A stretch of 64,000 nucleotides of DNA, from the NCBI RefSeq assembly GCF_003762835.1, contig NZ_RJWA01000001.1, forward strand, positions 930,001-994,000. The letters run 5' to 3'. Shown here piece by piece: positions 2,446-22,939 of this stretch. Source of the stretch: Micromonospora sp. HM5-17 (GTDB lineage Bacteria; Actinomycetota; Actinomycetes; Mycobacteriales; Micromonosporaceae). The position numbers and the translations under genes are program-made. Position 1 is the first letter of the stretch. Each line of letters starts with the position of its first letter. Below the pieces are notes generated by a model, which did no database searches, had not been told where the DNA came from, and saw nothing but the letters and a program-made list of their open reading frames with translations.

Positions 2446-4071
<1,626 letters not shown>

Positions 4072-4221
4072 TCAACGGCGCCGATCCCGACCAGCCGGGG
4101 TCCGATGTAGACGGCATCCGGGCTGGATCGGCGCTTCCGTGGCTCGCCGCTTCCGCGTAACTGGCTGGTCGGCTCGGATAAGGTCGGCCGGATTCATCAC
4201 GGCTCGCCGATGGGTCTGACC

Positions 4222-4236
4222 GGCGAAAGTTTCCGG
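4222..4236. promoter_or_regulatory. candidate CGAAA-N-TTTCC palindrome
   Basis: CGAAAGTTTCC at 4224-4234 matches the xylanase palindrome CGAAA-N-TTTCG at ten of eleven positions. It lies about 370 bases upstream of the xylanase and 185 bases before the Hsp70-like gene, so it could act on either. Confidence 0.4.
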
Positions 4237-4418
4237 AACTATCGGTCACGTGATGTCTCGAGGCGCGCGCCGAGTGCGGACCGACCCATCCGCCGCCCCG
4301 AAACCGCCGTGCCGCGGTCGCCGTCCCGGTCCCGTGCCCGGCGTCGATCCATGGCTGCCGGGTCCGGTCGGGCCCGGGTTGACCCGGTACGTGGCAAGAA
4401 TGACGTAGGGTGGCGTCC

Positions 4419-7142
4419 GTGGCGGGCGAGGGATTCCGGCTCGGGATCGACTTCGGCACCTCGAACACCGTCGCCATGCTCGCCTTCCCTGACGGGCGGG
4501 TCCGGCCGCTGCTGTTCGACGGGTCCCCGCTGCTGCCGTCGGCGGTACACGCCGACCCGACCGCCGGGCTGCTGACCGGTCGGGACGCCACCCACGCCGC
4601 CCGGACACGGCCGGACTGTTTCGAGCCACATCCGAAGCGCTGCGTCGACGACGGCACGGTGCTGCTGGGTCAGGTCCAGGTGCCGGTGACGGACCTGGTC
4701 GCGGCGGTGCTCCGACGGGTCTCGGCGGAGGCGTCGCGGGTGACCGGCGGTCCGCTGCCGAAGGCGGTGCTGACCTGCCCGGCCGGCTGGGGGCCACGAC
4801 GGCGACGGGTCCTGGAGGCCGCCGCCCGGGCCGTCTTCGCCGACGTGGTGCTGGTGACCGAGCCGGTGGCCGCCGCGACCTACTTCGTCGCCGTCGCCGG
4901 CCGCCGGGTGCGGTCCGGGTCCTGCCTGATGGTGTACGACCTGGGCGCCGGGACGTTCGACGCCTCCGTGGTACGCCGTACGGCACGCGGATTCGAGATC
5001 CTCGCCGTCCGCGGCCTGCGCGACGTCGGGGGCCTCGACGTCGACGCGGCGATCGTCGACGCGCTCGGCGCCACCTACCGTGCCCGGGACGAGGCCCGCT
5101 GGACGCGTCTCGTCGAGCCGCAGGACCGGGCCGACCGGCGGGCATCCCGGGCGTTGTGGGACGACGTCCGCGCCGGCAAGGAGCTGCTCTCCCGGGCTGC
5201 CCACACCACCGTCCACGTGCCACTCTTCGACGACGAGGCGCCGTTGGGGCGCGAACACCTGGAGCGGCTGGCGCGACCGATCCTGGACCGCACGGTGGCG
5301 GCGAGCCGGCAGGTGCTCGCCGACGCGGGCGTCGAGGCCAAGGAGCTTGCCGGACTGTTCCTGGTTGGAGGAGCGAGCCGGATGCCGCTCGCCGCGGCCC
5401 TGCTACACCAGCGGCTCCGGGTCGCGCCGACCGTGGTCGAGCAGCCGGAGCTGGTCGTCGCCGAAGGCGCGCTGTACGCCGAGACCGCGCTTCACCGCGA
5501 GGGCGGCGAGGGCACGCGGCGTGCCGACGCGGACGCCGAGGGCGCGCGGCGCACCGACGCGGCACCGCCAGCCGGCGGTTCGCCGCGTCCCGCGGTCGCC
5601 GGGCCGGTCGGCGGTGCGCCGGGCCCCGCCGTCGCCACCACCGCCGGGTCGGCGCGGTCCGGCATCCGGGCCGACGACCCGCCGAGCCCGATCGCGGCTG
5701 ACCTCACCACCCGACCGGGGTCTCGCCGGCTGACCAGCGTCGCACTGGTGACGGCGGTGGTGCTCGGGGCGTTGGCGGCGGTCGGCGGCGATCAGCTGGT
5801 ACGTTCGGCCACCCCGGACGCGTTTCCGGCCGTACCCGAGCCGCTGCGTGCCGACTGCCGCGACGACGAGTCGGCCATGCGGGGCGCCACCCGGACGCTG
5901 CGGTGCCGCGACGCGCGGGGACGGCCGGCGTCGGTCGGACTCTTCGCCGACCGTGCCGCCGTCGAGTCCGCGTACGAGCAGGCGGTCCGCGAGGCCGGGG
6001 TCACCCGCGGAGAGGGCGACTGCGCCACGGACCCGGTCGGGGAGCACCGGTACCCGGCGACGGGCCCGGCCGCTGGTCGGGTCCTCTGCGTCACCGACGG
6101 AACCGGGACGACCCGCCTCGTCTGGACCGACGACCGGACCCACACCCTGACCCGCATCGAGGCGTCCGGCCCCGACGCCGGGCGGGCGCTGCGCGAGTCG
6201 TGGTTCGCCTGGACCGCCGCGCCGGCGTTCCCCACCGCCGAGGAGCGGTCGTTGGTCGACCTGCTGGGCGCCACCGACTGTCGGCGGGTGGGAATCGCCG
6301 AGCTGGACGACTTTCCCGGTGCGGTCGCCGGGGTGTCCTGCAAGCCGCAGGGCGTCGGGGCCCGGACGGTGTCGTACTACCGGTTCGGGGCCCTGGCCGA
6401 CCTTCAGGCGGCGATGGACGCCCACGCCGCGGCGGCCGAGGCGCCCACCGGCGTCGTCTGCGACGACGACACGCCCGGATTCCTCGGCTCCCGCCGCTAC
6501 GACCTGCGCAGCGTCGAGGTGGGCGTGGTGCTGTGCCGTCCCGGCGAGCAGAGCACCCTGGTGATGGAGTGGAGTGCCGAAGCCCTGTTGGTGGCCGGTC
6601 GGGCCGTCGGCACCGACGCCGCCGGGCTGTCCGCCTGGTGGCGTGTCTACTCCGGCCCGCCGATCGCGCAGACCGTCAGGGCGATCAACGCGGGATCCAC
6701 ACCGCCGTTCCCGACCGCCGAGGAGGCCGCGCTCCTCGAGCACATCCCGCAGCGGTCCCGGGTGAACTGTCTCCGCCCGTCCGCCGAGCAGGTGTGGCGG
6801 AACGTCGGCTCGGAGCCGGTGGTCGCCGTCGGATGCGGTCCCACCAGCGGCGCCCGGGTCGTCTTCTACTACCAGTTCCCGGATGCCGCGGCGATGCGGC
6901 GCAGCTACGGCACCCACCCGGCGAGCGACAAGAAGTGCACGGCGCTGCCCCGGCCGTTCCGCGGCGAAGCCCCGTACCGGCGTGGCCGGATGTCGGGCTG
7001 GCTGCGCTGCGGGACGGACGACGCCGGTAACCGGTGGCTGGAGTGGACCACCGACCAGGTGGCCATCCGGGCGTTCGCCTTCCAGGGCGGCGATCCGGCC
7101 GCGATGATCGACTGGTGGCGGCACGACGCCGGACCCGTCTGA
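4419..7142 (+). CDS. membrane-anchored Hsp70-like ATPase with 3-repeat Cys-rich ectodomain
   Basis: This is a protein of about 907 aa. Its N-terminal 350 residues form an Hsp70/actin-type nucleotide-binding domain: phosphate loop 1 (GIDFGTSNT, about residue 10), phosphate loop 2 (VYDLGAGTFD, about 173) and the adenosine motif (FLVGGASRMP, about 315). No Hsp70 substrate-binding domain follows. Instead there is a Pro/Ala-rich linker, one membrane helix (about 438-457, LTSVALVTAVVLGALAAVGG), and roughly 450 extracytoplasmic residues. Those residues form three repeats, each opening FP-x-x-E and carrying four cysteines and terminal Trp residues. The ATPase side should face the cytoplasm. A GTG at 4410 is also in frame but overlaps the -10-like TAGGGT (4406-4411), so GTG 4419, seven bases after it, is the likelier leaderless start. 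A paralogue lies at 20897-22939. The function is unknown; signal transduction across the membrane is inference. Confidence 0.85.
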   Translation: MAGEGFRLGIDFGTSNTVAMLAFPDGRVRPLLFDGSPLLPSAVHADPTAGLLTGRDATHAARTRPDCFEPHPKRCVDDGTVLLGQVQVPVTDLVAAVLRRVSAEASRVTGGPLPKAVLTCPAGWGPRRRRVLEAAARAVFADVVLVTEPVAAATYFVAVAGRRVRSGSCLMVYDLGAGTFDASVVRRTARGFEILAVRGLRDVGGLDVDAAIVDALGATYRARDEARWTRLVEPQDRADRRASRALWDDVRAGKELLSRAAHTTVHVPLFDDEAPLGREHLERLARPILDRTVAASRQVLADAGVEAKELAGLFLVGGASRMPLAAALLHQRLRVAPTVVEQPELVVAEGALYAETALHREGGEGTRRADADAEGARRTDAAPPAGGSPRPAVAGPVGGAPGPAVATTAGSARSGIRADDPPSPIAADLTTRPGSRRLTSVALVTAVVLGALAAVGGDQLVRSATPDAFPAVPEPLRADCRDDESAMRGATRTLRCRDARGRPASVGLFADRAAVESAYEQAVREAGVTRGEGDCATDPVGEHRYPATGPAAGRVLCVTDGTGTTRLVWTDDRTHTLTRIEASGPDAGRALRESWFAWTAAPAFPTAEERSLVDLLGATDCRRVGIAELDDFPGAVAGVSCKPQGVGARTVSYYRFGALADLQAAMDAHAAAAEAPTGVVCDDDTPGFLGSRRYDLRSVEVGVVLCRPGEQSTLVMEWSAEALLVAGRAVGTDAAGLSAWWRVYSGPPIAQTVRAINAGSTPPFPTAEEAALLEHIPQRSRVNCLRPSAEQVWRNVGSEPVVAVGCGPTSGARVVFYYQFPDAAAMRRSYGTHPASDKKCTALPRPFRGEAPYRRGRMSGWLRCGTDDAGNRWLEWTTDQVAIRAFAFQGGDPAAMIDWWRHDAGPV

Positions 7143-7195
7143 CCCGGACCGTACGTCGGGGTGACGCGGGCTGGCCGGTTAGCCAACCTGGACCG

Positions 7196-7238
7196 GGTGG
7201 CGCCGTCGTGGTGGGGCGGCGGCGGGCGGGGCGCCACC
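7196..7238 (+). terminator. candidate terminator after Hsp70-like gene
   Basis: GGTGGCGCC (7196-7204) pairs perfectly with GGCGCCACC (7230-7238) around a 25-nt G-rich loop. It lies 54 bases after the stop, between convergent genes. Confidence 0.4.
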
Positions 7239-7254
7239 GAGGCGGCCCCGGGGA

Positions 7255-7725
7255 TCAGCCCAGAACCGAACCGCTGATGCTGACGGTGCCGGTCCCCGTG
7301 CTGCGTCCGTTGGTCCTGGTCAGCACCTGGCCGTTGAACATGCCCACGAGTTCCACGTTGCCCCGGCGGTACTCGATTGTCAGGCTCCACTCGTGGGTCC
7401 GGCCGTCGGCCGGTACGTCCACCGACTGGCGCCACGGCAGGCGTACCGGCCCGCCCTCGGTGGCCCGACCGTCCAACACGTACGTGAACTTGTCGATCGT
7501 GGCCTTCCCGGTCGCCGTCAGCACGAGGATGTGCGGCTGCCGGGCGGCCTCCGTCGAGGTCGCGTCCACGGCCGCGCTGGCGGTGGCGGTCGCGCTCGCC
7601 GGCGGTACGGCGGCCGACGGGTCGGCTCCGGGAGGAGAGTCATCGGCACCGCAGCCGGCGAGGAGCGCGACGAGCACGACCAGACCTGCCGTCAGCGGGC
7701 GCGCGGCGGGCAGCATGTCTGCCAC
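7255..7725 (-). CDS. putative lipoprotein
   Basis: This 156-aa exported protein has a lipobox (LVALLAGC, with Cys at about residue 25), so it should be lipid-anchored on the outer face of the membrane. A low-complexity Ala/Pro/Thr stretch follows. The C-terminal domain of about 90 residues is beta-rich (HILVLTATGKATIDKFTYVLDG...WSLTIEYRRGNVELVGMF). It resembles the MmpS-like immunoglobulin-type domains found in actinomycete lipoproteins; this is a fold-level guess. The start is GTG at 7725 or ATG at 7716, and neither has a strong ribosome binding site. It lies directly downstream of the CPBP protease gene on the same strand (1-2 bases apart), so the two are probably co-transcribed. Confidence 0.75.
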   Translation of the reverse strand: MADMLPAARPLTAGLVVLVALLAGCGADDSPPGADPSAAVPPASATATASAAVDATSTEAARQPHILVLTATGKATIDKFTYVLDGRATEGGPVRLPWRQSVDVPADGRTHEWSLTIEYRRGNVELVGMFNGQVLTRTNGRSTGTGTVSISGSVLG

Positions 7726-7726
7726 A

Positions 7727-8632
7727 TTAGTCCACCATCGGTGATGGTGAAACGATTCGCTTCGGCCCGTCCGCCGCCGGTTTGTCCGCTCCCGGCCCGG
7801 CCGGGCCGGCGTCCGGGACCGACCGGAGACGGCCGCTGAGCAGGATCCAGGCGCAGATCGCGCCGAGCGGGATCAACGCCACCAGATCGACGACCGACGG
7901 ATCCAGACCGGCCCCCTCCACCAGCAGCGGAGCGGAGAGCCCGCTGATGATCATGTTGTTGCCGGCGTGGGCGACGCAGGGCACCCAGATACTCCCGGAC
8001 CGCAGGAACAACCAGGCCAGGATGACCGACTGCGCCACCATCAGCAGCGTCCAGGTGCCGATCCCGGCCAGCGGGTTGCCGTAGCTCGAGTAGTCGGTCA
8101 GGACGAGCGGGTAGTGCCAGACGGACCAGATGACTCCGGTGACCAGCGCGGCGCGGAGCGGGCCGCCGCCCACCCGTCGTTGCAGATAGGCCCGCCAGCC
8201 GAACTCCTCGCCCCAGAACACGGGCGCCAGCAGCAGGGGCGCCGCGAGCGCCAGCAGCAGCGCGGCGGGCTCGGCCGGTCCCGTGCCCGGGAGAGCCTGG
8301 CGCAGCCGCGTGAGGTCGAGGTGGTACAGCCCGAACCCGGCGGCCAGGCCGACGGTCGCGGCGAGTACCAGCACCGGACCGGCCCAGGCCAGCAGGTAGT
8401 GGCGGGCCGCCGCGCGCAGTCGCGGCCGGATGCCGGAGTCGCCGAAGCCCTCCCGGGTGACCCACCGCCGTACCACCAGCGCCGCGATGGCCGGCGAGAA
8501 CGCTATCGGGACCTGCACCAGCGGGTTGACCAGCGACATACCGGGCACGATTCGCGCGACGGCAATGGTTCCCCAGGCCAGACCGAAGGAGATGAGCAGG
8601 AACGCGAGTACGCCTCTGGCGGCTGGTTTCAT
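7727..8632 (-). CDS. CPBP family intramembrane glutamic endopeptidase
   Basis: This 301-aa polytopic membrane protein belongs to the CPBP/Abi family, related to the CAAX protease Rce1. The family signature is visible: EEFGWRAYL with paired Glu142-Glu143, a second motif WSVWHYPL with the catalytic His, and HAGNN near the C-terminus. Members are linked to prenyl-protein processing, bacteriocin self-immunity and regulated proteolysis; which one applies here is unknown. The ATG has a good AGGAGAAG ribosome binding site; the longer in-frame ORF upstream does not. It is divergent from the histidine kinase gene and abuts the lipoprotein gene. Confidence 0.88.
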   Translation of the reverse strand: MKPAARGVLAFLLISFGLAWGTIAVARIVPGMSLVNPLVQVPIAFSPAIAALVVRRWVTREGFGDSGIRPRLRAAARHYLLAWAGPVLVLAATVGLAAGFGLYHLDLTRLRQALPGTGPAEPAALLLALAAPLLLAPVFWGEEFGWRAYLQRRVGGGPLRAALVTGVIWSVWHYPLVLTDYSSYGNPLAGIGTWTLLMVAQSVILAWLFLRSGSIWVPCVAHAGNNMIISGLSAPLLVEGAGLDPSVVDLVALIPLGAICAWILLSGRLRSVPDAGPAGPGADKPAADGPKRIVSPSPMVD

Positions 8633-8891: not shown

Positions 8892-8911
8892 GGGTATGGC
8901 CAGGCATACCC
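8892..8911. promoter_or_regulatory. operator, GGGTATG-N6-CATACCC, upstream of histidine kinase
   Basis: This is a perfect 7-bp inverted repeat with a six-base spacer (GCCAGG). The same element, in reverse-complement orientation, lies at 11151-11170 before the lipoprotein/ABC operon. The centre is 66.5 bases from the GTG at 8968, exactly the distance of the second copy from GTG 11227. It is the natural candidate for the binding site of the response regulator encoded between the two copies. Confidence 0.75.
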
Positions 8912-8967
8912 GCTGGTTATCGTCAGCCCTATCGGACGGGCCCAGCCGGGCGGCTATCGTGGCCAGG

Positions 8968-10347
8968 GTGCGTAGGGGCAGGCCACGGACGGCGCTGGAG
9001 GCGCTTTCCCTGCGCTGGCTGCCGGTCTCCGGCTGGCCGTGGCGGTCGGCCGGATACCTGCTCACCACCCTGCCGATGGCGGTGCCCCCGTTCGTGGTGC
9101 TCGCGATCCCCTGGCTGGTGCTGCTGGCCCGGCTGGCGGCCGGCAACTACCAGCCCGGCGGCATCGTGGTGCTGGTCCTGCTCGGAGTCGCGATGACCGC
9201 GGCGTTCGGGCCGTTGGTGGCGCCGCCGCTGGCCCGGCTGGAGCGGCTCCGCCTGCGCCTGGTCGACACCCGCCCGACCGGTACCGATGATCAGGACCCG
9301 ACCTGGCCGGGCGTCGGGTTTCCCCGGCCCGGATCCGAGCCCAACCGGCCGCTGTCCCGGCTGCGGGTCCGCTACACGAGTCCGGCCACCTGGCGCGAGG
9401 TCGCCTACGCCTGGCTGCTGGGCACCGTGGCACCCGCCCTGACGCTGGCCGTGCTGCTCGTCGTACTCATGCTCGCCACCTTCCTCGCCAGCCCGTTCCT
9501 CATCCTGGCGCAGCCGCCGGGCGGTGCGCCGGTCGCGCTGGGCTTCGGCAGCGCGGAGACCGTGGCGGAGGCCGTGCCGTACGCGATCGCCGGCATCCTG
9601 GCGCTCCCGCTGATCCCCTACCTGCTGACGCTGGCGGCCGGCGGGCACGCGGCGGTGGCGCGGGCCCTGCTCTCCGGTGACCAGACCGAGCGGTTACGCG
9701 CCGAGCTGGTCGAGGTGGCACAGTCCCGCCTACGGCTGGCGGACGCCTTCGAGGCCGAGCGGCGCCGGATCGAGCGCGACCTGCACGACGGTGCCCAGCA
9801 GAAGCTGGTCAGCCTCACCCTGCACCTGGGGCTCGCACGCCTCGACCTGCCACCCGACTCGCCCGCCGCGGTGAGCGTCGCCACCGCCCACGAGCAGGCC
9901 AAGCAGCTCATGAATGAGCTGCGCCAGCTCATTCACGGCATCCGGCCGCAGATCCTGACCGACCTCGGCCTGCCCGCCGCGCTCGGTGAACTCGCCGACC
10001 AGTCCCCGGTCCCGGTGACCGTCGACGCCGACCTGTCCGGCCGACTGCCCAGCCAGCTGGAACACACCGCGTACTTCGTGGCCGCCGAGGCGCTGACCAA
10101 CGTCGCCAAACACAGCGGCGCCACCAGCGCGACGGTGACGGTACGGCAACGCGGTACCGTGCTCTCCCTCGAGATCGCCGACAACGGCCGCGGCGGCGCC
10201 GACCCGAGCCGGGGCAGCGGCCTGACCGGTCTGGCCGACCGGGTGGCCGTGGCCGGCGGCCGACTGCTGCTGTCCAGCCCGGACGGCGGCCCGACAGTCC
10301 TGCGCGTGGAGCTACCGTGCCATCGCAACCAGCCATCATCCGAGTAG
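8968..10347 (+). CDS. sensor histidine kinase, NarL/DesK type
   Basis: This 459-aa membrane kinase probably autophosphorylates and passes phosphate to the adjacent response regulator. It has four hydrophobic segments: two near residues 22-70 and two near 140-235. The HisKA_3 dimerisation helix follows, with His273 in ERDLHDGAQQKLVSL. The HATPase domain has NVAKHSGAT (N box), DNGRGG (G1) and GSGLTGLADRV (G2). An ATG at 8896 is in frame but lies inside the operator. GTG 8968 sits seven bases after TATCGT (8955-8960), a -10-like hexamer, so I favour a leaderless start there; GTG 8959 is another option. The end overlaps the regulator gene by 31 bases, which suggests translational coupling. The signal is unknown. 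Confidence 0.9.
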   Translation: MRRGRPRTALEALSLRWLPVSGWPWRSAGYLLTTLPMAVPPFVVLAIPWLVLLARLAAGNYQPGGIVVLVLLGVAMTAAFGPLVAPPLARLERLRLRLVDTRPTGTDDQDPTWPGVGFPRPGSEPNRPLSRLRVRYTSPATWREVAYAWLLGTVAPALTLAVLLVVLMLATFLASPFLILAQPPGGAPVALGFGSAETVAEAVPYAIAGILALPLIPYLLTLAAGGHAAVARALLSGDQTERLRAELVEVAQSRLRLADAFEAERRRIERDLHDGAQQKLVSLTLHLGLARLDLPPDSPAAVSVATAHEQAKQLMNELRQLIHGIRPQILTDLGLPAALGELADQSPVPVTVDADLSGRLPSQLEHTAYFVAAEALTNVAKHSGATSATVTVRQRGTVLSLEIADNGRGGADPSRGSGLTGLADRVAVAGGRLLLSSPDGGPTVLRVELPCHRNQPSSE

Positions 10348-11030
10348 TCATCGCCGAAGACGGGGTCCTGCTCCGGGAGGGACTCGCCGGCCTGCTCGAG
10401 CGGTTCGGCTTCCAGACCGTGGCCAGCGTGGGCGACGCCGAGGCCCTCCGGAACGCCGTCGCCACCCACGCCCCCGACCTGGTCATCACCGACATCCGGA
10501 TGCCACCCAGCTACACCGACGAGGGGCTGCGCGCCGCCGTGGAGCTGCGACGCGCTCACCCCGGGCTGGCGGTCATCGCGCTCAGCCAGTACGTCCAACA
10601 CCGCTACGCGGCGGACCTGCTCGACTCCGGCGACGGCCGGGGCGTCGGCTACCTGCTGAAGGACCGGGTGGTCGACGTCGAGGACTTCGTCGCCGCCCTG
10701 CGCCGGGTGGTCGCCGGCGGGACCGCCGTGGACCCCCACGTCATCAGCCGACTGCTGCGCCGCCGCCGCGACCCGCTGTCCGCCCTGTCCCCGCGCGAGC
10801 GGGAGGTCCTCGCCCTCATGGCCGAGGGCCACTCCAACGCCGCCATCGCCCGGCAGCTGGTCGTATCCGAAGCCGCCGTCGGGAAACACGTCGGCAACAT
10901 CCTCACCAAGCTCCACCTTCCCCAGACCGAGGACACCAACCGCCGTGTTCTCGCGGTCCTGGCGTACCTGCGCAGCGACGACCAGGGCGCCGGCCCGGCC
11001 GGCGTCGGCCTGGACGGCACCCGCCCGTGA
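10317..11030 (+). CDS. NarL/LuxR-family response regulator
   Basis: This 237-aa regulator has an N-terminal receiver domain: the phosphoacceptor is Asp59 in VITDIRMPP and the conserved Lys is in YLLKDRV. A C-terminal LuxR-type helix-turn-helix follows (LSPREREVLALMAEGHSN...AVGKHVGNILTKL, about residues 157-205). The start is a GTG inside the 3' end of the kinase gene. It is the obvious candidate to bind the GGGTATG-N6-CATACCC sites before the kinase and the lipoprotein/ABC operon, which would make the system autoregulated. That pairing rests on the site positions, not on a known DNA-binding code. Confidence 0.93.
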   Translation: MPSQPAIIRVVIAEDGVLLREGLAGLLERFGFQTVASVGDAEALRNAVATHAPDLVITDIRMPPSYTDEGLRAAVELRRAHPGLAVIALSQYVQHRYAADLLDSGDGRGVGYLLKDRVVDVEDFVAALRRVVAGGTAVDPHVISRLLRRRRDPLSALSPREREVLALMAEGHSNAAIARQLVVSEAAVGKHVGNILTKLHLPQTEDTNRRVLAVLAYLRSDDQGAGPAGVGLDGTRP

Positions 11031-11150
11031 CCGGCGCCATCGGGCCGGACGCACCGTGACGTCCGAGGGCGGCGGACCCGACGAGCGCGCACCGGACGAG
11101 ACCACGATGTGTACGTGGCGGATGTGCGCTCGGTGACCGGCGCCGGTAGG

Positions 11151-11170
11151 GGGTATGCCTGGCCATACCA
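11151..11170. promoter_or_regulatory. operator, GGGTATG-N6-CATACCa, upstream of lipoprotein/ABC operon
   Basis: This is the second copy of the inverted repeat at 8892-8911, present as its reverse complement with the same central bases (CCTGGC). One outer base differs. Its centre is 66.5 bases before the start at 11227, identical to the first site. Confidence 0.75.
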
Positions 11171-11226
11171 CCACTTCGGCGTCCAGGCGTAGTGCCGGCC
11201 CGCGGCGTTGGTGATGTGCTGCGACG

Positions 11227-11952
11227 GTGAACTCGACACGCATCCTGCTGACCGTGCTGGCGGGTCTGGTGGTCGGTGTCGCCGGCTGCGCGGACCTGCG
11301 AGCGATCAACTCCGAGCGGGACGACCGACGGGAGTTCCCGTTCTCCGGCGACCGGTTGACCGTGCAGAGCGACGGCACCGACGTCCGCCTCATCCCCGGC
11401 GCCCGTGGTGTCGTGACCGTCGACCGGCACCTCACCGGCAAGGCCACGACGGACGGCGGCGCCTCGTGGTCGCTGACCGGCGACACGCTGAACCTCCGGG
11501 TCACCTGCAGCGGCTTCGTCCCGGACTGCGGAGGTACGCACGTCGTCGCCGTACCCGCCGAGGTGGCGGTCCAGCTGACCAGCCACAGCGGCTCCGTTCG
11601 GTCCGCCGGTCATCCCGGCGACCTGACCATCTCGGTCGAGGACGGCTGGCTGCGGGTGGAGGACCCCGTCGGCACGCTTCGGCTGACCGCGGAGTTGACC
11701 GTCGAGGTGACCGGGGCGCGCTCGACGGACGTGACCGCGACCTCGGAGGACCGGGACGTCACGCTGACCTTCGCCACGCCACCGAAACGGGTCGAGGCCC
11801 GCGCCCGGACGGGCGACGCCGAGGTACGGCTGCCCGCCGGGTTGGAGACCTACCGGGTCCGGGGCAGCGGTCTGCGGAGCGATCCCAACAGCGACCGGAC
11901 GGTCACCGCGATCGCGGACCACGGCACCGCCCGGGTCCGGAAGGGGGAGTGA
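11227..11952 (+). CDS. DUF4097-like lipoprotein
   Basis: This 241-aa exported protein has a signal peptide that ends in a lipobox (VVGVAGC, with Cys at about residue 21). The rest is a repetitive beta-rich body of the kind seen in DUF4097 'adhesin' proteins (phrases such as VQLTSHSGSVRSAG and LRLTAELTVEVTG), probably a right-handed beta-solenoid. Such proteins are often encoded beside ABC transporters and two-component systems that respond to envelope stress. Here it is the first gene of a three-gene operon: its stop overlaps the ATP-binding subunit's ATG by one base. The operator lies 57-76 bases upstream. The precise role is unknown. Confidence 0.82.
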   Translation: MNSTRILLTVLAGLVVGVAGCADLRAINSERDDRREFPFSGDRLTVQSDGTDVRLIPGARGVVTVDRHLTGKATTDGGASWSLTGDTLNLRVTCSGFVPDCGGTHVVAVPAEVAVQLTSHSGSVRSAGHPGDLTISVEDGWLRVEDPVGTLRLTAELTVEVTGARSTDVTATSEDRDVTLTFATPPKRVEARARTGDAEVRLPAGLETYRVRGSGLRSDPNSDRTVTAIADHGTARVRKGE

Positions 11953-12848
11953 TGCTGGAACTGCTCGACATCCAGAAGGTGTACCGGGGCGGGAAGGTGG
12001 CCGTGGACGGGCTGACCATCCGGCTCGGCACCGGCCTCGTGGGACTGCTCGGCCCGAACGGCGCCGGAAAGTCGTCGCTGATGCGGATCGCCGCGACCGT
12101 CACCCGGCCCACCCGGGGGCACGTCCGGTACGCGGGCACCGACGTGGTCGCCAAACCCAACGCACTCCGCCGGGTCCTCGGCTACCTGCCCCAGGACTTC
12201 GGGGTCTACCCCAACCTGACCGCGCGGGAGTTCCTGTCGTACCTGGCCGCCGCCAAGGGACTCTCCGCCCGCTCCGCCCGGGCCCGCATCGGCGAGCTGC
12301 TGGAGCTGGTCAACCTCAGCGCGGCGGGCAACCGCCCGCTCGGCAGGTACTCGGGCGGCATGCTCCGCCGGGTCGGGATCGCGCAGGCACTGCTCGGCGA
12401 CCCGGAGGTGGTGATCGTCGACGAGCCGACCGCCGGCCTGGACCCGGAGGAACGGGTACGGTTTCGCAACCTGCTCAGCGACCTGTCGGCGGACCGGATC
12501 GTGCTGCTCTCCACGCACATCGTCTCCGACGTGGAGTCGGTGGCGAACGACATCGCGATCGTCGCGCACGGCCGCCTGCTGCGCCGGGGTACCCCCGACG
12601 CGCTGCTGCGGGACGTCGACGGCCAGGTGTGGGAGGTGACCGTCGAGCCGGCGGAGACGAGCCGGATCCAGGAGCGGTACCCGGTCACCCGGATCGTGCG
12701 CACCGCGGCCGGCGTACGCGTGCGGCTGCTGGCGGCGGCGCCACCCGCACCGGACGCGCGGCGCGTGCCCCCGGACCTCGAGGACGCGTACCTCGCCGTC
12801 GTCCGGGCGGCCGGGCACCCCGAGCGAGTCGCGGGCGGGCTGCGGTGA
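11952..12848 (+). CDS. ABC transporter ATP-binding protein
   Basis: This 298-aa ATPase has Walker A (GPNGAGKS, about residues 36-43), the Q-loop (YLPQDFG), the signature motif (YSGGM, a variant of LSGGQ), Walker B (VVIVDEPTAGLDPEE) and the H-loop (LLSTHIVSD). These mark a CcmA/DrrA-type subunit that powers an ABC-2 permease. The roughly 80-residue C-terminal extension is typical of this group. The ATG overlaps the lipoprotein stop (TGATG), and the gene's TGA overlaps the permease GTG (GTGA), so the three genes are tightly coupled. The substrate is unknown; the link to the two-component system suggests antibiotic, lipid or peptide export. Confidence 0.93.
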   Translation: MLELLDIQKVYRGGKVAVDGLTIRLGTGLVGLLGPNGAGKSSLMRIAATVTRPTRGHVRYAGTDVVAKPNALRRVLGYLPQDFGVYPNLTAREFLSYLAAAKGLSARSARARIGELLELVNLSAAGNRPLGRYSGGMLRRVGIAQALLGDPEVVIVDEPTAGLDPEERVRFRNLLSDLSADRIVLLSTHIVSDVESVANDIAIVAHGRLLRRGTPDALLRDVDGQVWEVTVEPAETSRIQERYPVTRIVRTAAGVRVRLLAAAPPAPDARRVPPDLEDAYLAVVRAAGHPERVAGGLR

Positions 12849-14413
12849 TCGCCGGGCTCGCGCTCGCGGACTTCCGGGACCGGGTACGCCGGCCGGCGTA
12901 CGCGGCGATCGTGCTCGGGGCCGTCGGCCTGGGCTACCTGGCGGCGCCCGGCGCCGACGGGCGCTGGGTGATCCTGAACCTGGGCGGCTACCGAGGCGTC
13001 TACGACAGCGCCTACACCGCCGCCGTGATCGCGCTCGCGGGCGCGCTGTGGCTCATGCTCGGCGGCTTCTACGCGGTCCGGGACGCGATCCGGCGGGACG
13101 AGCGTACCGGCGTCGGCCAGCTGTTGGCCGCCGCCCCGATCAGCCGTGTCGCGTACCTGCTGGGGAAGTTCGCCAGCAACCTGCTGGTGCTCGCCTCGAT
13201 GGCCGGGGCACTCGCCGGCACCGCGCTGGTGATGCAGCTGGCCCGCGGCGAGTCCCGCGCCGTGGACCCGGTCGCCGTGCTGGAGCCGTTCGTGCTCCTC
13301 ACGTTGCCGGTGCTGGCGGTCACCGCGGCGGTCGCGGTGCTGTTCGACAGCGTACGCCTGCTCAGTGGCGGGATCGGCAACATCGTCTGGTTCTTCGGGT
13401 GGCTGGTGCTGGCCGTCGCCAGTCAGAGCTCGACCGCGCTGCTGGGCGGCATCGGCGTGGGATACCTCGCCGACTCGGTCCGCGCCGACCTGGCGGCCCA
13501 GGGCCTACCGCTGAAGGATGCCGAACTCGGCCTCGGCCTCATGTACGTCGACCAGCCACTTCGGACGTTCGACTGGTCGGGTCTGGACGTCGACGCCGGT
13601 CTGGTCGTCCAACGGACCTGCCTGGTGCTCGTCGCGATCGCCATGGCGGCACTGCCGGCGTTGTGGTTCCACCGGTTCGACCCCGCCCGGCGCGCGGGAG
13701 CGGCGATCGACTCCGGCCGGGGGGTCGGTGCGGTGATCAACTCCGTCCACGGCATCGGCGCGGCGGCCCCGGCGTCGCTGCCCGCGCAGCCTGCGGGTCA
13801 CGTCGGCCTGCCGAAGACAGCGGTCCGGCGGGGCAACCCTGCGCCGCGGCTGTTCGTCGGGGAACTGCGCATCCTCGTGCGGGCGGTCAGCCCCTGGTGG
13901 TGGCTCGGTGCGGCGGCCATCGTGGTCGTGGGCCTCGTGGTGCCGCCTCCCGCGGCGCTCCTGGCGGCCGGGATCTGGCCGGTCCTGATCTGGTCCCGGT
14001 TGGGCACGCAGCCGGTGGAGCACGACGTGGTGACGCTGCTCGGCGCGTACCCGGCGGCGCGCCGCCGGCTGCTGGCCGAGTGGGCGGCGGGACTGGCCGT
14101 CACCGTACTGGTCGGGTCGGGCCTGGCCGTCCGGATGCTGGTGACCGGCGACGGCGCCGGTCTGGCCGCCTGGGCCGCCGGCGCTCTGTTCGTGCCCTCG
14201 TTGGCGCTCGCGCTCGGCGTGGTGAGCCGTACCCAGCGGTTGTTCCAGGCCGTCTACGTGCCGCTGTGGTACGTGGTCGTGAACGACGTGGCGGCCCTGG
14301 ACTACCTCGGTGCCGTGCCGGGCGGCCCGGCGCCCGGGCTCGTCGCCGGTGCCGGGGTAACGCTGCTCGCGGCGGCCCTCGCGGTGACCGAGGCCCGACA
14401 CGCCCGACGATGA
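12845..14413 (+). CDS. ABC-2 type transporter permease
   Basis: This 522-aa integral membrane protein has about ten to twelve hydrophobic segments, two blocks of roughly six separated by a hydrophilic Ala/Gly/Pro-rich region near residues 275-325. That arrangement suits a duplicated ABC-2 permease core. The start is the GTG that overlaps the ATPase stop by four bases; the ORF extends further upstream only as a shadow of the ATPase. It is the third gene of the operon governed by the operator at 11151. Confidence 0.88.
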   Translation: MIAGLALADFRDRVRRPAYAAIVLGAVGLGYLAAPGADGRWVILNLGGYRGVYDSAYTAAVIALAGALWLMLGGFYAVRDAIRRDERTGVGQLLAAAPISRVAYLLGKFASNLLVLASMAGALAGTALVMQLARGESRAVDPVAVLEPFVLLTLPVLAVTAAVAVLFDSVRLLSGGIGNIVWFFGWLVLAVASQSSTALLGGIGVGYLADSVRADLAAQGLPLKDAELGLGLMYVDQPLRTFDWSGLDVDAGLVVQRTCLVLVAIAMAALPALWFHRFDPARRAGAAIDSGRGVGAVINSVHGIGAAAPASLPAQPAGHVGLPKTAVRRGNPAPRLFVGELRILVRAVSPWWWLGAAAIVVVGLVVPPPAALLAAGIWPVLIWSRLGTQPVEHDVVTLLGAYPAARRRLLAEWAAGLAVTVLVGSGLAVRMLVTGDGAGLAAWAAGALFVPSLALALGVVSRTQRLFQAVYVPLWYVVVNDVAALDYLGAVPGGPAPGLVAGAGVTLLAAALAVTEARHARR

Positions 14414-20241: not shown

Positions 20242-20922
20242 ATGAGCACCGTGAGCAGCGACAATCCGTCCTCGGCGGCCGCCGCCCGCCACCTGACCAT
20301 CCGGCCCCGGATCCTGTACTTCGGCACTCCGGTGGTGTTGGTCAGCACCGAGAACGACGACGGAAGCGCCAACCTCGCCCCGATCTCCTCGACCTGGGCG
20401 CTCGGGCAGACCGTCGTACTCGGGCTCGGGTCGGAGGGTCAGACGGCGTGGAACCTGTGCGCGCGACCCGAGCTGGTGATCAACCTGCCCGCGTCGCGAC
20501 AGTGGCGGGCGGTGGAGCGCCTGGCTCCGCTGACCGGGCGGTATCCGGTGCCGGAGCACAAGCGGGCCGTCTTCCGGTACGAGCCGGCCAAGTTCGCCGC
20601 CGCCGGGCTCCACCCCGAGCCGTCCGAGCTGGTCAGGCCGCCCCGGGTCGCCGAGTGCCCGATCCAGCTGGAGTGTCACGCGGTGGCGGTCCGGCCGGCC
20701 GCTGCCGGCGGGTTCGTCATCGTCGAGGCAGAGGTACGGCGGGTCCACGCCGATCCGCGGATCGTGGTTCCCGGTACGCAGCACATCGACCCGGCGGCCT
20801 GGAACCCGCTGATCTACAACTTCCGGCACTACTTCGGCCTCGGTCCGGAACTCGGGCAGAGCTTCCGCACCGAGACGCCACGGTCGACCGAGGTGCTCAG
20901 CGGACCCGCTCGTACTCGGTGA
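20242..20922 (+). CDS. flavin reductase family protein
   Basis: This 226-aa protein has the FMN-binding split-barrel fold of flavin reductase-like proteins. Typical phrases are PVVLVSTENDDGSANLAPISSTWALG near residues 30-55 and ELVINLPASRQW. Related proteins bind FMN and either supply reduced flavin to monooxygenases or act as oxidoreductases. The ATG lies six bases after TACCGT (20230-20235), a -10-like hexamer, so the mRNA is probably leaderless. It is divergent from the ArsR-type regulator, 65 bases away, an arrangement typical of a regulator/target pair. Its last 26 bases overlap the 3' end of the convergent Hsp70-like gene. Confidence 0.85.
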   Translation: MSTVSSDNPSSAAAARHLTIRPRILYFGTPVVLVSTENDDGSANLAPISSTWALGQTVVLGLGSEGQTAWNLCARPELVINLPASRQWRAVERLAPLTGRYPVPEHKRAVFRYEPAKFAAAGLHPEPSELVRPPRVAECPIQLECHAVAVRPAAAGGFVIVEAEVRRVHADPRIVVPGTQHIDPAAWNPLIYNFRHYFGLGPELGQSFRTETPRSTEVLSGPARTR

Positions 20923-22939
20923 CGCCGTTGCCGAAGATCCGCATCGTGTCGCCGTCGCAGATGTACTCGATCGGTTCCAGCAGCAGTTGCAGCGGTTCCC
21001 GGTTGTTGCGGCTGCTGCCGCGGTAGAGGTCCATCGTCCCCTTGGCCCGGACGCCGCTGATGTACTCGAATCCGTCGCGGTGGTAGACGTTCGCCGTGGC
21101 GGTGCCCCGGATCCGGGAGCGCCACCGTACGCCGCCTACCGTGGAATACGAGTCCGTGCTCTTGTCGAAGTCGAGTTTGACCTTGCCGTCCGGGGTGTAG
21201 GTCTGGACGACCCCTTTCCTGCCGGTGAACTGCACCTTGCGGCCGTCGATGTAGTTGAAGGACTGCTGCGCGACCGACCGCCAGGTGCCGATCATGCAGC
21301 TGTCGACGCCGTTGACACTCGTCGGGGTGGGGGTCGGGGTCGGTGACGGGCTGACGTTGCCGAGCGTCGCCCCGCTCGGTCCCTCGCCCGGCGACCCCGC
21401 CAGGTTTCCACGGTCGCCGCCCTGGGCGCTGACAACCACGGCCGTCGCGACGATCAGGCCGAGTACCCCGATCGCCGCCCCGGCCACACTCGCCATCCGG
21501 CTCCATCGGGACCACCAGGCGGCGAGGCGGGCCGCTGAGCGGCTTCCGGCCGCGGCCGGCCGGCCGCCCGCCGCGTCGGTCGCGACCCCGCCCGCAGGCT
21601 CCGTGCCGTCCACGGTCCCGCCCGCGGTCCCCATGCCGTTCGGGACGCCGGCGGTCCCGGCGCCGTCGGTGGGTCCCACACCGGCCCCGGCGGCTCCCGT
21701 CGGTCCCGACACCCCGGGCGCCGTCGGCGCCCCGGCCAGGGCCCGGGCCGTCGCGGGGGCGACCGCCGTGGTCGGCCGTTCGACGGTCGTGGCGGTCGCC
21801 GCGGCCGAGCCCGGCGTCGTCGCCTCCGCCGGCGTCGTCGACGTCACCGGCACCGGTACCGGTGCGACGCCGGTCTCCGGCACCCGGAGGCTGCCCTCGG
21901 CCACCACCAGCTCCGGCTGGTCGACGACGCTCGGGGCGAGCCCGAACTCGCGGTGCAGCGCGGTGGCGACCGCCGGCATCCGGCTGGCGCCGCCGACGAG
22001 GAGGATGGCGGCGAGCGAGTCCGGGGTGCCGGCCCGATCCAGCACCCCGCGGGCCACCCGCACGGTCCGGTCCAGCACCGGCGCGGCGACCTGCTCCAAC
22101 TCCTCTCGTCCCAGCGGCACGTCAAGGTCGAACAGCGGTACGTGGACCATCGTCCGGCTGGCCCGGCTCAGCATCTCCTTGCCGGCCCGTACGTTCGTCC
22201 ACAGTTGCTGGTTCGCCCGCCGGTCGCCCGGGGTGGCCGGAGCGGTGAGTCGCTGCCAGAGCGCGGCGTCGCGGACTCCGACACTCTCGCCGAGCCGGCT
22301 GACGACGGCCGCGTCGATGTCGAGCCCGCCATGGTCGGCCAGTCCCTCGGTCGCCAACACCTCGAACCCGGCCTCGGTGCGGCGTACCACGGTCACGTCG
22401 AAGGCGCCGGCGCCGAGGTCGTAGACGAGGGCGGACCCGCCGACCGGCAGTCGTCGCCCGGCTACCTCGACGAAGTAGTGCGTGGCGGCGACCGGTTCGG
22501 GTACGAGGCGTACGCTCGGCAGCACCCGTCGGGCGGCGGCCAGCAGCGTCGCGCGACGTCGCGCGCCCCAGGCGGCCGGGCAGGTCAGCACCGCCTCGGT
22601 GACCGGTTGGTCGGTGATCAACCGGACCTCGGCGACGACCCGGCCGAGCGGCGCCCCGAAGAGCTCGCTCACGCTGATCTCGCGGCCGCCGAGCAACACC
22701 GTGCCGTCGTCCACACACCGTTTCGGGTACGGCTCGAGGGACTCCGGAAAGGACAGCCCGGTGTGCAGGGCGTCCTGGCCGACGAGGAGTCGGTTCCCGG
22801 TCTCCGCGCAGACCGCGGAGCGCAGCAGCGGGGATCCGTCGAACAACACCGGACGGGGCTCCCGGCCGGGAAGAGCCAGCACGGCCACGGTGTGGTACGT
22901 GCCGAGGTCGATGCCGAGTCTCGCGCCTGCGCCGCCCAC
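20897..22939 (-). CDS. membrane-anchored Hsp70-like ATPase with beta-rich ectodomain
   Basis: This 680-aa paralogue of the protein at 4419-7142 has an Hsp70-type nucleotide-binding domain: GIDLGTYHT (about residue 9), VYDLGAGAFD (about 170, with Ala where Thr is usual) and LLVGGASRMP (about 314). A Thr/Ala/Gly/Pro-rich linker (about 350-470), one membrane helix (about 481-503) and an ectodomain of about 130 residues follow. The ectodomain starts CMIGTWRS and contains repeated beta-strand patterns and two cysteines, so it is lipocalin-like and unrelated to the ectodomain of the first paralogue. There is no substrate-binding domain. The GTG is six bases after TACCGT on the minus strand, again a leaderless arrangement. 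Its 3' end overlaps the flavin reductase gene tail to tail. Confidence 0.85.
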   Translation of the reverse strand: MGGAGARLGIDLGTYHTVAVLALPGREPRPVLFDGSPLLRSAVCAETGNRLLVGQDALHTGLSFPESLEPYPKRCVDDGTVLLGGREISVSELFGAPLGRVVAEVRLITDQPVTEAVLTCPAAWGARRRATLLAAARRVLPSVRLVPEPVAATHYFVEVAGRRLPVGGSALVYDLGAGAFDVTVVRRTEAGFEVLATEGLADHGGLDIDAAVVSRLGESVGVRDAALWQRLTAPATPGDRRANQQLWTNVRAGKEMLSRASRTMVHVPLFDLDVPLGREELEQVAAPVLDRTVRVARGVLDRAGTPDSLAAILLVGGASRMPAVATALHREFGLAPSVVDQPELVVAEGSLRVPETGVAPVPVPVTSTTPAEATTPGSAAATATTVERPTTAVAPATARALAGAPTAPGVSGPTGAAGAGVGPTDGAGTAGVPNGMGTAGGTVDGTEPAGGVATDAAGGRPAAAGSRSAARLAAWWSRWSRMASVAGAAIGVLGLIVATAVVVSAQGGDRGNLAGSPGEGPSGATLGNVSPSPTPTPTPTSVNGVDSCMIGTWRSVAQQSFNYIDGRKVQFTGRKGVVQTYTPDGKVKLDFDKSTDSYSTVGGVRWRSRIRGTATANVYHRDGFEYISGVRAKGTMDLYRGSSRNNREPLQLLLEPIEYICDGDTMRIFGNGVTEYERVR

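Follow-up and report, generated by a model that had tools for sequence, protein, structure and literature searches.

Hsp70 proteins are soluble chaperones, and in DnaK the catalytic residue Lys70 can be lost with ATP binding left in place and hydrolysis impaired. MmpS proteins are accessories of envelope lipid export. The PknH sensor is reported to have two intramolecular disulfides (PMC3601408), and Kaur et al. 2020 (PMC7159879) describe HSP70 domains without a peptide-binding domain in conflict systems of multicellular actinobacteria. The gene analyzed here lies at positions 4419 to 7142 of a 64,000-nucleotide stretch of the soil bacterium Micromonospora sp. HM5-17 (contig NZ_RJWA01000001.1, positions 930,001 to 994,000; this whole stretch is called the window) and encodes an Hsp70 nucleotide-binding domain (NBD), one predicted membrane helix and three four-cysteine units. 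The protein is probably a single-pass membrane receptor with an outer three-unit sensor, an inner Hsp70 NBD that serves as a switch and an output that is exchangeable among relatives. A search of the open-access literature (PMC), with subscription journals mostly outside its reach, returned no description of Hsp70-NBD membrane receptors.

Domain order and the three-unit ectodomain

The open reading frame (ORF) begins with GTG and encodes 907 amino acids (aa), with an in-frame GTG at 4410 as an alternative start (910 aa). Its features are the following:

4419 to 7142, plus strand: receptor-type Hsp70-like protein (ORF list; full-length relatives L002, L015 and L016)
4434 to 5474, plus strand: Hsp70/actin-fold NBD, predicted cytoplasmic, aa 6-352 (PF00012, E=2.5e-30; residue comparison with the genome's own DnaK)
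5730 to 5786, plus strand: single predicted transmembrane (TM) helix, aa 438-456 (hydropathy only; basic N-flank)
5823 to 6224, plus strand: ectodomain unit 1, four Cys, W-x-x-W (Cys spacing and profile-profile comparison)
6225 to 6656, plus strand: ectodomain unit 2, FPTAE start, four Cys, WW (Cys spacing and profile-profile comparison)
6705 to 7139, plus strand: ectodomain unit 3, FPTAE start, four Cys, WW (profile-profile comparison; own AlphaFold2 model, pLDDT 91.9)

The first-pass annotation placed the membrane helix directly after the NBD, a position that is in fact occupied by a Pro/Ala/Gly-rich linker of about 85 residues. The helix is the one hydrophobic segment of the protein (KD19 2.22), and because basic residues are more numerous on its N-terminal side, an N-in/C-out orientation is expected. 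The 439-residue part that follows the helix contains exactly 12 Cys. The gene sits between one divergent and one convergent neighbor, and no promoter or terminator consensus was found within positions 4000-7900.

Uninterrupted frames encode the same fusion of NBD and ectodomain in three or more other genomes (L002, L015 and L016), with a full-length identity of 59-63% to L015 and L016. The ectodomain is 71% identical both in a genome of the same genus (G001) and in the Plantactinospora alkalitolerans record L014, and on this ground the source genome is probably a Plantactinospora. The three open-frame orthologues already contradict the idea that a chance fusion or an assembly artefact has joined an Hsp70 gene to an unrelated secreted-protein gene. 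That origin is extremely improbable, even though certain relatives from draft assemblies are disrupted or irregular in places (L006 is spread over two frames and L015 has a divergent NBD stretch) and the ectodomain is missing from four of the seven genomes of the source genus.

The ectodomain had been described as three homologous repeats with four cysteines at matching spacings, and both points are borne out. The spacings are 16/39/22 in unit 1, 20/40/25 in unit 2 and 22/34/24 in unit 3, and all 12 Cys are kept in 20 of 20 ectodomains aligned. Profile-profile comparison gives E values of 9e-10 for units 1 and 2, 3.2e-9 for units 1 and 3 and 2.1e-16 for units 2 and 3. In single-sequence Smith-Waterman alignments the relationship is clear for units 2 and 3 (z=17.7) and lower for units 1 and 3 (z=3.7) and units 1 and 2 (z=2.1); the score of this last pair, equalled in 42 of 1000 shuffles, makes it convincing only via the family profiles. 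In their AlphaFold2 models (pLDDT 87 and 91.9) the units have helices and strands that succeed one another in a common order. The FP-x-x-E start and terminal Trp pair that the first-pass annotation assigned to every repeat are features of units 2 and 3 only, as the FP of unit 1 is out of register with FP-x-x-E and its Trp residues form W-x-x-W instead of WW. All three units are probably disulfide-bonded outside the membrane.

The repeat family, which had not been recognized from the sequence, has no counterpart in the domain databases searched: there is no Pfam match to the ectodomain at E<=1, none of the proteins scanned shows a Pfam hit over the unit, and no NCBIfam model matched the 469-residue C-terminal piece at E<=1. 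Among PDB sequences no ectodomain relative was found, and the three weak matches (E 0.19-0.22) are photosystem subunits aligned over about 32 positions. The modeled fold of the unit leans, though not decisively, toward the Mog1/PsbP/PknH-sensor class (PknH sensor, TiME, PsbP and Mog1), a borderline likeness for which the absence of a family from the VIA-align lists was not counted as evidence against that family. Membership in PknH_C (PF14032) was considered and rejected, with hhalign of 36 units against nine PknH_C sequences giving E=0.063 and a probability of 0.9%, and with no Pfam match at E<=1.

Single four-Cys units cap further membrane proteins, and the single-unit profile A1 matches 25 of 296 class-level genomes at E<=1e-5. 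Such a unit follows a helix on kinases (identified by Pfam in L099, L102 and L113 and by similarity in L101), on Hsp70 NBDs (identified by Pfam in L068/L096 and by profile in L036 and L107) and on the Pro-rich proteins L093, L095 and L097, which have no Pfam match. Separately, the protein L035 (G033 C57), for which about eight membrane helices are predicted, ends in a four-Cys unit. Small, secreted-looking proteins with four-Cys units (L108 and L115) come from another family of the same order, L115 having several such frames in a row; from its many PknH_C and MmpS copies this host family is probably, at a guess, the mycobacteria.

The Hsp70 nucleotide-binding domain and its expanded family

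The PF00012 match spans profile positions 110-368 of 599 only, and because it stops at position 368 the protein has no substrate-binding domain, as the first-pass annotation had stated. That the domain belongs to the Hsp70 superfamily is indicated by the residues of its DxGT, DLGxGTxD and GGxSR motifs, which align to the genome's DnaK. It does not qualify as an Hsp70 chaperone of the DnaK/HscA type: in addition to the missing substrate-binding domain, the column of the VLLLDV linker is empty, the Lys70 position is changed, and the NCBIfam DnaK/HscA scores fall well under their cut-offs (e.g. 131.8 versus 708.55 bits). Of the intact Hsp70 NBD claimed earlier, the domain match stands, and the catalytic position and the linker do not.

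At the Lys70 position the window protein has Thr in the alignment with the genome's own DnaK, and none of the 36 family members aligned has Lys there (T, V, Q, L, E, I, S or A in 36/36). The phosphate-, magnesium- and adenosine-holding residues of DnaK are conserved in the NBD family, with D8, D194, D201 and R342 kept in all 36 and E171 in 35. Among 28 class-level loci, the Lys70 position is Lys in two and Arg in one. Because this position is changed while the nucleotide-binding residues are kept, the NBD is likeliest to be an ATP-binding switch rather than a chaperone. With neither linker nor substrate-binding domain, the receptor is unlikely to run a canonical chaperone cycle, and the ATPase part of the transmembrane-sensor reading is in doubt.

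The nucleotide site also bears on a different proposal, namely that the membrane-tethered NBD works on the envelope as a motor, scaffold or polymer (MreB/FtsA-like or chaperone-like). Its ATP cycling inside the cell would then move or anchor the ectodomain, and the protein would be an effector and not a sensor. The site is conserved in the aligned members, the NBD additionally matches MreB/Mbl (E=2.5e-8), and the neighboring lipoprotein described below resembles MmpS, an accessory of envelope lipid export. The Lys70 change in 36/36 members, judged by what is known of Hsp70 catalysis, argues against a fast ATPase, however, and the ectodomain is shared with kinases and caspases, which are signaling or effector enzymes. 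Some NBD relatives also bear ligand-binding domains, and a motor or scaffold role is considered unlikely.

Besides a single DnaK, the genome encodes six divergent proteins of Hsp70 type. The NBD family is common to five of them: the receptor analyzed here and four paralogues whose NBDs are 51-63% identical to its own. In all five a helix is predicted downstream of the NBD. Their ectodomains are the four-Cys triple (receptor analyzed here), a CxIGTW domain with no Pfam match (L058/L076 and a paralogue in the window), WD40 (L061/L089) and PQQ (L063/L091). The CxIGTW paralogue in the window is the following:

20897 to 22939, minus strand: paralogue of the same class, with an NBD that is 59% identical, a TM helix and a CxIGTW-type ectodomain

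In this paralogue a Tyr stands right after the DLGT motif and an Ala at the Thr199 position, and its nucleotide site may be further altered.

The NBD family is found at E<=1e-80 in 45 of 61 family-level genomes, with 333 matches in total, a median of 3 per genome and a maximum of at least 34, a floor given that scoring was limited to 34 candidates in each genome. Larger genomes tend weakly toward more copies (Spearman 0.30, p=0.019). At class level, 12 of 60 genomes have a match at E<=1e-40. A helix follows the NBD in 26 of the 29 family members fetched, more than 150 residues lie beyond the helix in 17 of the 29, and a helix is predicted for 19 of 28 proteins in the class sample, five of the 28 being from this genome. 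A Pfam scan covered 30 of 57 NBD loci, hand-picked and with the last ten chosen partly for telling-looking ectodomains, and in 10 of the 30 the part downstream of the NBD contains a domain other than Hsp70 that scores above the Pfam cut-off. After the NBD and a predicted helix come periplasmic-binding-protein domains in L082, L177 and L180 and a ricin-type lectin in L067; WD40, PQQ or Vgb propellers lie downstream of the NBD in L069, L085, L089, L091, L173 and L181, with no TM helix predicted in L085. A soluble-looking Hsp70-like protein is encoded at L062 (G000 C23:614226-615017). Near it, by reading of the sequence, is an ORF that we take to resemble a STAND/LuxR-type regulator, and opposite is what is presumably an IniB-like repeat protein.

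Exchangeable outputs and the convergent lipoprotein gene

Fusion of the repeat to other cytoplasmic domains, a prospect raised in the first-pass annotation, does occur, with Ser/Thr kinases and caspase-like proteases as the partners. The ectodomain is carried by 13 of 150 family-level genomes at E<=0.001, and in 12 of these it has three units. It is joined to an Hsp70 NBD in the window protein, L002, L004/L015, L005/L016 and, in two frames, L006; the Hsp70 module was assigned by Pfam in the window protein, L002 and L004 and by similarity in L005, L006, L015 and L016. A caspase-like protease (PF00656, by Pfam) takes its place in L008 and L012. Ser/Thr kinases do so in L009, L010 and L011 by Pfam, and by translation and motifs in Saccharopolyspora L017, seven Amycolatopsis loci (L019-L024 and L026) and Actinocatenispora L025. 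L003/L014 and L007/L018 are cut before the N-terminal module. The caspase motifs YAGHG/DCCYSG are kept in 2/2 loci and the kinase motifs HRD..N and DFG in 12/12 loci inspected. In a tree built from 20 ectodomains, sequences with like outputs cluster together, and the three outputs require at least two changes; the tree's own count of four treats two rows of unknown output as a separate label, and the tree gives no order for which output came first.

Read from these domain assignments, this is one sensor with exchangeable outputs (Hsp70 NBD, Ser/Thr kinase or caspase-like protease). The earlier picture of an ATPase wired to an outer sensor survives in its receptor architecture, given the same ectodomain on other outputs, and loses its intact ATPase to the change at the Lys70 position. 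A transmembrane sensor is the best available reading, and the sensor/receptor architecture is well supported by the domain comparisons.

The exchange of outputs also invites a reading as a conflict or programmed-death arm, in which a surface sensor of phage, predator or rival triggers a kinase, caspase or Hsp70-type output in multicellular actinobacteria. The ectodomain is swapped onto caspase-like proteases (L008 and L012), the expansion of the NBD family is lineage-specific, and Kaur et al. 2020 (PMC7159879) place HSP70 domains without a peptide-binding domain, kinases and TM parts in conflict systems. The PADLOC caspase model matches the caspase relative (E=5e-7), and PD-T4-6 and other PADLOC kinase models match the kinase relative many times, but these matches may stem from the shared catalytic domains alone, and PADLOC gives none at E<=0.001 for the Hsp70 protein, the window paralogue or the lipoprotein. 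The window neighbors scanned with Pfam include neither GTPase, tubulin or GrpE genes nor MoxR or vWA genes, and the A1 search of viral contigs (not plasmids) confirmed no ectodomain relative among 75 pattern-matched stretches. This reading is judged quite improbable.

For the sensor with exchangeable outputs, neighboring genes were compared at 18 loci, namely the window plus 17 of L001-L026. Excluded were L001 (the window's own copy), L013 (a single unit), L011, L006, L003, L004, L005 and L007 (the last four being duplicates or probable duplicates of named records) and L014 (a cut contig). The flanks covered reach up to 1.5 kb for genome-search loci, up to 6 kb for named records and 12 kb for the window, and because of these unequal lengths the absence of a neighbor is weaker evidence at the short-flank loci. 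An FHA-like gene adjoins six of the 11 kinase-type loci and the cut locus L018, 0/4 Hsp70 loci and 0/2 caspase loci. It stands beside L009, L010, L017, L018 (output unread), L020, L023 and L025, with FHA scores under the Pfam cut-off in L017 and L025 and no FHA score in L023.

The neighbor that recurs under all three outputs lies directly downstream of the receptor gene, tail-to-tail with it:

7255 to 7725, minus strand: small lipoprotein of 156 aa, lipobox LLAGC, MmpS-like (position, alignment A7 and hhalign to MmpS)

Its gene is found in this arrangement at 15 of the 18 loci: with Hsp70 types (window, L002, L015 and L016), caspase types (L008 and L012), kinase types (L017, L019-L024 and L026) and the truncated L018, in which the N-terminal half is missing. 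The three loci where it is not found (L009, L010 and L025) are all of the kinase type. Counted by genome, both genes stand side by side in nine of the 12 family-level genomes with a three-unit ectodomain (G000, G001, G004, G025, G052, G081, G100, G105 and G113). In alignment A7 the lipobox Cys is present in 11/11 rows reaching it, and the strict [LVI][ASTVI][GAS]C box is seen by eye in 9/11; codon differences modestly favor third positions. Against eight MmpS sequences, hhalign gives E=8.9e-5 and a probability of 60% over 74 columns, versus E values of 0.48 and 0.52 for mismatched pairs. Neither the window lipoprotein nor four relatives have a Pfam match above the cut-off, including PF05423, and the lipoprotein profile has no convincing relative in the PDB (best E 0.01, to a designed NTF2-fold protein). 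Conservation of this neighbor across three outputs argues that the lipoprotein works with the ectodomain.

Weak relatives of the lipoprotein domain form the C-terminal part of the Ser/Thr kinases L136, L137 and L139. Window neighbors with a Pfam match comprise a GH10 xylanase, a deaminase, VTT and Rce1-like proteins, a histidine kinase, a response regulator and an ABC transporter. Downstream, at 8896-14413 on the plus strand, come genes for a Sensor-domain histidine kinase and a response regulator, and after them ABC transporter genes.

Proposed mechanism and comparison with known systems

In the proposed mechanism, the three-unit disulfide-bonded sensor would bind an envelope component or an external ligand on the outside, probably working with the lipoprotein encoded tail-to-tail. 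A resulting change in shape or assembly would pass through the single helix to the NBD inside, which would act as an ATP/ADP-dependent binding switch for a cytoplasmic partner rather than as a chaperone. The output would be exchangeable, the sensor being coupled in relatives to a Ser/Thr kinase or a caspase-like protease instead.

Several observations weigh against this proposal. The topology of the receptor is expected from hydropathy only, the structural matches of the units are at a level also reached by common arrangements, and signaling may run in the reverse direction. No conserved cytoplasmic partner gene lies beside the three Hsp70 versions compared. Three of the 12 genomes (G017, G055 and G089) have the ectodomain without a lipoprotein match, and G003 has a strong lipoprotein match with no receptor domain within its 3.4-kb locus. 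In the NBD family, nine of the 29 members have fewer than 100 residues past the helix (tail-anchored-like), three of the 29 have no helix, all three being cut by the locus end, and nine of the 28 class-sample proteins have none. Tail-anchored-like and helix-less members mean that not all NBD-family proteins are receptors, and 20 of the 30 NBD proteins scanned have no recognized downstream domain.

For the Actinobacteria, and above all the Micromonosporaceae, there is an evenly balanced case for a class of one-helix receptors that use a chaperone-stripped Hsp70 NBD as the cytoplasmic signaling module. Such receptors would number dozens per genome in some species, and would parallel the receptor Ser/Thr kinases and share ectodomains with them (four-Cys units, propellers, lectins and periplasmic-binding proteins). 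If true, receptors have repeatedly taken up the ATP-binding half of Hsp70 as their inner switch, no fewer than 34 times in one genome, and bacteria possess a largely unnoticed receptor type alongside histidine kinases, Ser/Thr kinases and chemoreceptors. It would then become directly testable whether the ATP/ADP switch of Hsp70 works without the substrate-binding half, and with kinase, caspase and Hsp70 modules swapped behind one sensor, stimuli of one kind would be expected to give three outputs that can be measured. The new elements are the output swap behind one sensor, the lipoprotein neighbor, the broader distribution of the unit and an NBD class that is expanded and partly receptor-like.

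Compared with MmpS (PF05423), the neighboring protein aligns over 74 columns but is a lipoprotein rather than TM-anchored, and no MmpL-like gene is present among the Pfam-scanned window neighbors. With the GAP1-N2 GTPase conflict systems, as portrayed in PMC7159879, the receptor shares a truncated Hsp70 module in actinobacteria; it differs from that portrayal in the TM segment and ectodomain fused to the NBD and in having no GTPase, tubulin or GrpE among the window neighbors scanned. Like DnaK and HscA it has an actin-like NBD with phosphate and adenosine motifs, and unlike them it combines a substituted Lys70 position and the loss of linker and substrate-binding domain with a predicted membrane anchor and an ectodomain. 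The actinobacterial receptor Ser/Thr kinases (PknD with its propeller, PknH with its sensor) differ in that the cytoplasmic module here is an Hsp70 NBD and the ectodomain is not PknH_C by Pfam or profile. They share with the receptor a layout of a cytoplasmic nucleotide-binding module, one helix and a globular outer sensor, and the very same ectodomain occurs on kinases.

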